A stretch of DNA of 64,000 nt, from positions 4,101,001-4,165,000 of the forward strand of contig NZ_CP109446.1 in assembly GCF_036227265.1 (NCBI RefSeq), given 5' to 3'. This stretch comes from Streptomyces sp. NBC_01476. Its GTDB lineage: Bacteria; Actinomycetota; Actinomycetes; Streptomycetales; Streptomycetaceae. Below the pieces are notes generated by a model, which ran no database searches, was not told the DNA's origin, and saw only the letters and a program-made list of their open reading frames with translations. The position numbers and the translations under genes are program-made. Numbering within the stretch: position 1 is the stretch's first letter; every line of letters starts with the position of its first letter. Positions 1,380 to 62,634 of the stretch are shown piece after piece.

Positions 1380-1468
1380 TTATCCACAGGGGGTGTGGAC
1401 GGCGGCCCGATACCTGTGGAGAACTGCCCCCAACCTGTGTACAGCCCTTGGGACAGCCCTGTGGACAA
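1380..1468. promoter_or_regulatory. cluster of four DnaA boxes upstream of dnaB
   Basis: Four 9-mers fit the actinobacterial DnaA-box pattern within 89 bp: TTATCCACA at 1380-1388, and on the other strand TGTGGACGG at 1394-1402, TGTGGAGAA at 1415-1423 and TGTGGACAA at 1460-1468. They sit in the 443-bp gene-free stretch between divergent dnaB and the MATE gene. A role in dnaB control or DnaA titration is inference. Confidence 0.75.
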
Positions 1469-61236: not shown

Positions 61237-62103
61237 ATGGACCAGCAGCCGGTCTGCTGCTATCGGCACCCGGACCGGGAGACGGGCATACGCTGCACCC
61301 GGTGCAACCGGCCGATCTGCCCGGAGTGCATGGTCAGCGCCTTTGTCGGCTTCCAGTGCCGGGAGTGCGCCGGGCAGGCATCGGCCCCGCACACCCGGCC
61401 CCGCACGGTGGCCGGCGGCACAGTGGCGGCGGACCCGTTCCTGATCACGAAGATCCTGATCGGCCTGAACATCGCGGTGTTCGTGCTGGAACTGGCGATG
61501 GGCGACCGGCTGGTCGAGCGGCTGGGGCTCTACGCGATCTGCGGCAACGACATCACCGGGCAGCACGTCTGCATCGGCGTCGCCCAGGGCCCCGACCAGT
61601 GGTATCGCGTGCTGACCTCGGCGTTCGTGCACGAGAACTCGGGGGCGCCGCTGCACATCGCCTTCAACATGCTGTCCCTGTGGTGGATCGGCGCCCCGCT
61701 GGAACGGCTGCTGGGCCGCAGCCGCTATCTGGCGCTGTACTTCGTCTCGGCGATCGCGGGCAGCGCGGCGGTCCTGCTGCTGGCTCCGGACTCGCTGACC
61801 ATCGGCGCCTCGGGCGCGATCTGGGGCCTCTTCGGCGCGACCGCGGTCTTCGTGCGCCGGCTGCGCTACGACATGCGGCCGATCCTCTTCCTGTTGGCGC
61901 TGAACATCGTCATCAGTTTCACCTGGAGCGGTGTGAGCTGGCAGGCACACGTCGGCGGGCTGATCGGCGGCACCCTGGTCGCGCTCGGGCTGGCGTACGC
62001 GCCCCGTGAGCGGCGCGATCAGGTGCAGTGGGGGACGACCGCCGCGGTGCTGGTCGCGTCGCTGGCCGTCACCGCGGTCGCTGTGGCACAGGTCACGTCC
62101 TAG
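61237..62103 (+). CDS. rhomboid family intramembrane serine protease with zinc-finger N-terminus
   Basis: 288 aa. Residues 5-45 carry a B-box-like cysteine/histidine cluster (CCYRHPDRETGIRCTRCNRP, then CPEC and CREC). Six membrane helices follow; the catalytic Ser lies in IGASGAIWGLFGA and the His in WQAHVGGLIGG. It cleaves substrates within the membrane. ATG 61237 with GGGGAG upstream. Confidence 0.93.
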   Translation: MDQQPVCCYRHPDRETGIRCTRCNRPICPECMVSAFVGFQCRECAGQASAPHTRPRTVAGGTVAADPFLITKILIGLNIAVFVLELAMGDRLVERLGLYAICGNDITGQHVCIGVAQGPDQWYRVLTSAFVHENSGAPLHIAFNMLSLWWIGAPLERLLGRSRYLALYFVSAIAGSAAVLLLAPDSLTIGASGAIWGLFGATAVFVRRLRYDMRPILFLLALNIVISFTWSGVSWQAHVGGLIGGTLVALGLAYAPRERRDQVQWGTTAAVLVASLAVTAVAVAQVTS

Positions 62104-62132
62104 CGGCCGTGTCCGTTGGCGTTGATCAGACG

Positions 62133-62352
62133 TTATCCACAACGTGTAGGGGTGCCGACGCCTCCTGTGCACAACTGGTGGGAACGGCTGTGCGGAACGG
62201 CGGCGATCAGGGTTTTCCCTGCAAGATCAACGAAAGACCGGTGGCCGACACTCTGCCACCGGTCTCGTCACCGGTCGTACCGGCGTCAACCTCGTAGAGG
62301 TTATCCACAGATCTTCCGACCTTTTCCCCACTGTGGATAACCGTGTGGAAAA
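62133..62352. promoter_or_regulatory. DnaA-box cluster upstream of crgA
   Basis: Two direct TTATCCACA boxes (62133-62141, 62301-62309), inverted TGTGGATAA (62332-62340), near-match TGTGGAAAA (62344-62352) and TGTGCACAA (62166-62174) in the gap between the rhomboid and crgA 3' ends. Three are perfect, 25 kb from oriC. Confidence 0.72.
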
Positions 62353-62376
62353 CCCGCGCGGGCGCTGCCCGCCCGG

Positions 62377-62634
62377 CTACTTCCACTGCGTGGAGACGAC
62401 GAACCCGCCCGCGATGAAGCCGAAGCCGACCACGATGTTCCAGTTGCCGAGGGCGTCGACCGGCAGGCTGCCCTGGGTCACGTAGAACAGCACGATCCAG
62501 GCCAGACCGACGATGAAGAACGCCAGCATCAGGGGTGCGACCCACCCGCTGCGGTTGCCGAACTTTATGGCGGTGGCCGTCTTGGCGGGCGGCGGGGTGA
62601 AGTCGGCCTTCTTGCGGATCCGTGACTTCGGCAC
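62377..62634 (-). CDS. crgA: cell division protein CrgA
   Basis: 85 aa; inhibits or times FtsZ-ring formation in aerial hyphae and helps recruit septal proteins. Two membrane helices ([34 protein letters not shown]) after a basic start [18 protein letters not shown] 62634 with GGAGAG upstream. Divergent from the DUF881 gene. Confidence 0.96.

Follow-up and report, generated by a model that had tools for sequence, protein, structure and literature searches.

The convergent gap between the rhomboid protease gene and crgA probably contains a DnaA-binding control element close to oriC. It would be the counterpart of the crgA-side cluster of S. coelicolor, would belong to an element that spans the class, and would act by restraining re-initiation; from the comparison of sequences, we hold this reading with reasonable confidence. 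DnaA boxes are present in the gap and conserved, and outside the Streptomycetaceae they recur at the same position with fixed spacing.

DnaA boxes between the rhomboid protease gene and crgA

The window (the whole stretch of Streptomyces sp. NBC_01476 DNA analysed, 64 kb) contains 10 exact boxes as compared to 0.55 expected. The gap contains four exact TTNTCCACA boxes, three of them TTATCCACA, and two boxes with one mismatch (Table 1). When the gap was shuffled 5000 times, exact boxes averaged 0.006 (maximum 1, against 4 observed) and boxes with up to one mismatch averaged 0.19 (maximum 3, against 6 observed). A preliminary description had counted three perfect and two near boxes; the three TTATCCACA boxes stand, but the near boxes number three, not two. 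Pfam matches confirm both flanking genes, and these converge, as it had stated. It had expected no promoters here, and a scan of the gap for sigma-70-like promoters found none. Its placing of the cluster 25 kb to the right of oriC also holds, since the oriC boxes are located at about 37.0–37.6 kb in the window and dnaA at 4137562–4137762 of the chromosome. The GC-rich hairpin between the two box groups probably serves both convergent genes, rhomboid and crgA, as a terminator.

Table 1. Features of the rhomboid/crgA gap and clusters of exact DnaA boxes (window positions unless marked)
Feature	Position	Strand	Remarks
Rhomboid protease gene	61237..62103	+	PF01694
Rhomboid/crgA intergenic gap	62104..62376		273 bp; convergent flanking genes
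DnaA box TTATCCACA, rhomboid-proximal	62133..62141	+	Exact; mean column identity 0.96 (80-sequence Streptomycetaceae alignment)
Near box TTGTGCACA	62166..62174	-	1 mismatch; weakly kept, identity 0.55
GC-rich hairpin GACCGGTGGC/GCCACCGGTC	62236..62264		Between the box groups
Conserved non-box block GTTGACGCCGGTACGACC (crgA sense)	62273..62290	-	TTGACGCCGGTGTGAC in many relatives
12-bp perfect inverted repeat	62299..62342		From boxes 62301 and 62332; paired in RNA fold
DnaA box TTATCCACA	62301..62309	+	Exact; identity 1.00 over alignment
Compact three-box array	62322..62352	-	>12>10< in crgA sense; window counterpart of class-wide array
Near box TTTTCCCCA	62322..62330	+	1 mismatch; third box of compact array
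DnaA box TTATCCACA	62332..62340	-	Exact; identity 0.98
DnaA box TTTTCCACA	62344..62352	-	Exact match to TTNTCCACA
crgA	62377..62634	-	PF06781; cell-division gene; anchor of the element
Cluster at rhomboid/crgA	chromosome 4163133-4163352		4 exact boxes
dnaB/MATE cluster	chromosome 4102380-4102468; window 1380..1468		Exact boxes 1380+, 1415-, 1460-
Dyp-type peroxidase/serS cluster	chromosome 4026273-4026666; L187 1262-1659 (chromosome 4026261-4026658)		5 exact boxes

Conservation in the Streptomycetaceae

At least three exact boxes lie past crgA in 79 of the 80 named Streptomycetaceae loci and two in the remaining one; for one locus, where no rhomboid end was found, 500 bp was taken. With 79 gaps and the window aligned, the mean column identity is 0.85 in the boxes and 0.59 elsewhere. 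The best-kept stretches are the boxes at 62301 and 62332, and the box-free stretch 62273–62290 is also conserved. This block matches TNACNC-N2-GNGTNA, mostly as TTGACGCCGGTGTGAC, which is present in 44 of the 79 Streptomycetaceae gaps; the same half-sites occur with a spacer of 3 in 20 of 79. The block is a possible counterpart of a palindrome found in other families (TTACACNNGTGTAA, described below), which is itself absent from the edge of the array in Streptomycetaceae.

A three-box array downstream of crgA across the class

One even draw across the class gave 197 genomes, with crgA found in 196. From these, 98 crgA loci of 33 families were taken; the 97 with at least 300 bp downstream were used for box counts. 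An exact box lies within 300 bp downstream of crgA in 78 of the 97 loci, leaving 19 without, and within 300 bp upstream in 2 of 97; shuffles give an expectation of 0.58. Families f3, f5, f7, f18, f21, f25, f30 and f36, each represented by one or two loci, have no exact box in the downstream 300 bp.

Beyond the Streptomycetaceae, the boxes are arranged as a compact array of three with fixed spacing, >10<13< or >11<12< (arrowheads denote box direction, numbers spacing). Both spacings were varied from 9 to 16, giving 64 combinations, in a scan with up to 3/21 mismatches of the 86 loci outside family f1 (which makes up 12 of the 98). Spacing 10/13 was found in 42 of 86 loci (16 families), 11/12 in 14 (10 families) and 12/12 in 11 (7 families); no other combination exceeded 7 loci or 6 families, with 10/15 and 10/14 among the highest. 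The control upstream of crgA gave zero matches at all 64 spacings. The middle box faces either way, its orientation switching between families, and the outer inverted pair keeps a start-to-start distance of 23 bp in 17 families.

Genome-wide, strict patterns were used. The >10<13< array (up to two mismatches) matched once each in 58 of 197 genomes, and 57 of these 58 matches lie 18–276 bp downstream of crgA; the reversed control gave 0 matches in the 197 genomes. For the >11<12< array, 73 genomes gave 82 matching places, 37 of which lie past crgA; its reversed control gave one match, in one genome. Counting either pattern, a strict array lies past crgA in 89 of 197 genomes and, by hand count, in 24 of 36 families. 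The window genome gave no strict match. Its own array, >12>10< accompanied by additional boxes, is too diverged for the strict pattern. In all 24 genomes (of 29) that have both genes on one contig, crgA and dnaA are 11–75 kb apart. The neighbour gene of crgA varies, and in two loci of family f12 the array lies inside or beside the 3′ end of the rhomboid coding sequence. Recurrence at one place in most actinomycete families examined probably marks an old, shared initiation-control site.

Family f20 has a mirrored pair of three-box arrays past crgA, 46–47 bp apart (G124:C11:303819-303896, G186:C1:2373173-2373250 and G035:C12:164881-164959), and crgA appears as two adjacent matches in several f20 genomes.

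Some of the 45 >11<12< places far from crgA lie immediately upstream of dnaA, in one genome of f22 and in several of f4; in the f4 genomes the array (L269, about 1514–1545, G171:C77:38236 and G003:C1:5965766) is possibly an autoregulatory or oriC element. The 45 places also include the dnaB/MATE gap of family f16 (locus L268, around 1560).

Other box clusters in the genome

The 8.397-Mb chromosome, a single contig, carries 107 exact boxes. Among the 100 of these that were listed, three clusters have at least three exact boxes within 400 bp, none of them more than about 115 kb from oriC (dnaA at 4137.6 kb). The cluster between the Dyp-type peroxidase gene and serS is the largest among the boxes listed and includes a >13>12< array. 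The dnaB/MATE cluster, already proposed in the preliminary description, is real; it occupies a divergent gap and overlaps the beginning of the longest dnaB ORF. As the same gap carries a >11<12< array in f16, the left-hand cluster is conserved too. The suggestion that clusters flank oriC on both sides is thus well supported for the crgA-side and dnaB-side pair as control clusters, far beyond this genome.

Pairs of exact boxes 17–22 bp apart recur round the chromosome (for example at 3173342, 2708859, 4505107, 6358657, 3139727 and 2559160 of the window genome, G000), several of them preceded by a GAGTGGC-type hairpin (L188–L196). A search for a neighbour gene common to the tandem pairs (about 18 bp apart) elsewhere in the genome found none; the neighbours of the pairs are diverse (phosphorylase, MinD-like, DegV, DEAD helicase and MFS). 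These pairs may represent a dispersed element or a site for a regulator, and not one for replication.

A palindrome abuts the array

In 54 of the 74 array loci analysed, belonging to 23 families, the palindrome TTACACNNGTGTAA scores at least 9/12 at a distance of 0–2 bp from the edge of the array, and it does so at 10–12 or 20–22 bp in none of the 74; array loci with more than 3/21 mismatches (24 of 98) were omitted. In nine loci of one family, it also scored at 14 bp from the array. Genome-wide (33 genomes, up to two mismatches) it is rare, with at least a few places per genome among the matches listed. From these matches, 17 sites away from crgA were picked by hand, mostly the strongest of each genome. 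Twelve are upstream of one gene family, with PF02467 (WhiB) in all six ORFs scanned; these whiB-promoter sites come from many families (L251–L255, L259–L263, L265 and L267, at about 1501). By eye, at several of these loci, the palindrome overlaps TTGAC-17-TGTAAT, with −35/−10-like spacing. Four sites, all from one f4 genus, are upstream of a Pfam-less gene that follows an acetyltransferase gene, an order that we take to be that of sepX/glpR. The last is neither whiB-type nor acetyltransferase-linked.

The half-sites TNACNC and GNGTNA fit what we take to be the BldD consensus, in which the spacer is presumably 1. Both strings are present in the consulted part of one BldD paper. We rejected BldD as the identity of the site; a spacer of 2 is kept, and a spacer of 1 is found in 1 of 86 loci. 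WhiA was not adopted either, because its motif, in the part of PMC3781837 consulted, is the monomeric, asymmetric GACAC. GACAC-like stretches occur upstream of several whiB promoters.

Relation to the Streptomyces coelicolor clusters

S. coelicolor reportedly has three DnaA-box clusters, D78, H24 and H69, around oriC, said to have been described by Smulczyk-Krawczyszyn et al. in 2006 (J Bacteriol 188:6184). Deletion of D78, which differs from the crgA-side cluster, is said to have led to more frequent initiation or more origins in that study. crgA is SCO3854 in S. coelicolor, and 80 named relatives carry boxes at the crgA-side gap. Since H69 is, we assume, the cosmid carrying crgA, the cluster in the window is very probably the counterpart of H69, and with that identity the Streptomyces feature is very probably known already. 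Like H69, it is a DnaA-box cluster in an intergenic gap near oriC. Three clusters surround oriC here as well (crgA/rhomboid, dnaB/MATE and Dyp-peroxidase/serS, among the boxes listed). The 2006 work reportedly dealt with S. coelicolor and is not known to have described the class-wide array, its constant spacing or the palindrome that abuts it.

In the consulted parts of reviews citing the 2006 work, repression of untimely initiation is ascribed to the S. coelicolor clusters near oriC; either titration or inactivation would agree with this. The class-wide fixed array with its abutting palindrome appears to be new; no description of it was found in the open-licence literature searched. The literature used, each item in part, was PMC4285127, PMC10950094, PMC4585315, PMC3411110, PMC13121528, PMC4255298, PMC5742627, PMC8682772, PMC4245941, PMC13220808, PMC6265350, PMC3937824, PMC13270200, PMC5295017 and PMC3781837.

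Comparison with DARS, datA and Bacillus subtilis

We measured DARS1 of Escherichia coli K-12 (L199) as >14<12<, with the order > < <. For DARS2, 14/12 was the best of five spacings tested, at 5/21 mismatches. The actinomycete array resembles the cores of both in having three boxes, of which box I opposes II and III, with a convergent I–II pair. It differs in its I–II spacing, 10–12 bp as compared to 14 in E. coli (a difference of 2–4 bp), and in being near oriC, which DARS1 and DARS2 are not. Spacings 10/13 or 11/12 dominate, and 14/12 was found in only three of the non-f1 actinomycete families tested. As the defining I–II spacing fails, we rejected a classification of the class-wide array as DARS. 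The array may work like a nucleotide-switch site.

In datA of E. coli, boxes 7, 2 and 3 surround an IHF site, and the locus stimulates DnaA-ATP hydrolysis. The likeness to datA is by description in partly consulted sources, as an intergenic DnaA-box cluster that represses untimely initiation. The B. subtilis clusters outside oriC, whose removal leads to early initiation, are likened from the consulted part of a review. The preliminary description saw a resemblance to titration or reactivation loci; the box order, like that of a DARS core, agrees with reactivation, but the I–II spacing of 10–12 rather than 14 does not. Judged by sequence, titration, inactivation and reactivation fit alike.

Proposed role and alternatives

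In the restraining element that we favour, the strong boxes would be occupied by DnaA throughout the cycle and the weaker middle box would be filled cooperatively, so that a convergent DnaA pair and a tandem neighbour together would make up a compact complex. Because it is close to oriC, the element would be duplicated early, soon after initiation; with every new round its capacity for holding or inactivating DnaA would double, and re-initiation would be restrained. The fixed spacing suggests a defined DnaA complex, not only a sponge; simple titration would not need such spacing. This counts against the favoured reading, as do the 19 of 97 loci that have no exact box downstream, the finding of the strict array near crgA in 89 of 197 genomes, the lack of a strict match in the window genome, and the functional result of 2006, which reportedly concerns D78 and not the crgA-side cluster. 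The negative effect on initiation is suggested by the literature on the sister clusters.

The opposite effect would result if the convergent pair and the tandem third box held ADP-DnaA head to head, promoted nucleotide exchange and so raised the level of active DnaA, as in DARS. The array shares the > < < order of DARS1, its spacing is under constraint, and reviews, in the parts consulted, describe DARS box I as opposing II and III and working head to head. We nevertheless regard reactivation as improbable, given the 14/12 spacing of DARS1 and its scarcity among the families, the fit of DARS2 to 14/12 with 5/21 mismatches, and the repression ascribed to the S. coelicolor clusters in the review text consulted. 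A transcriptional role is likewise unlikely. For crgA and its neighbour, DnaA bound past crgA would then act as an insulator or roadblock, or it would regulate a promoter nearby, so that the output of division genes would be tied to the DnaA level. This would suit the linkage to crgA in 57 of 58 >10<13< matches despite the varying neighbour gene, and the occurrence of the abutting palindrome at whiB-type promoters too. However, a GC-rich hairpin is already present in the gap, no promoter-like site was found in the window gap, and the similar arrays of the dnaB/MATE gap and the stretch upstream of dnaA suggest a role in replication.

It is very improbable that the boxes belong to an ordinary conserved 3′ flank, retained for an RNA hairpin or terminator and not because DnaA binds them. 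Boxes 62301 and 62332 do make up an inverted repeat, and they are paired with each other in the RNA fold, but the orientation of the middle box flips between families, and it is the outer spacing, not stem pairing, that is conserved. The array within or beside the rhomboid coding sequence in the two f12 loci, and the same arrays upstream of dnaA, also argue against it.

More tentatively, the site could be a composite node spanning the class, with the fixed three-box DnaA site and an abutting operator of a dimeric regulator coupling initiation to septation through a DARS/datA-like switch whose geometry is unlike that of E. coli; we consider this possible but doubtful. If it were true, the state of DnaA and a division regulator would each be sensed by the other at a single place on the DNA, and the other main sites of that regulator would be whiB-type and, in one genus, sepX/glpR-like promoters. 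How DnaA is limited between initiations in actinomycetes is poorly known, and a single-copy, precisely spaced array offers a direct target. The palindrome common to the array and the whiB-type promoters suggests a physical link between the control of replication and of division.
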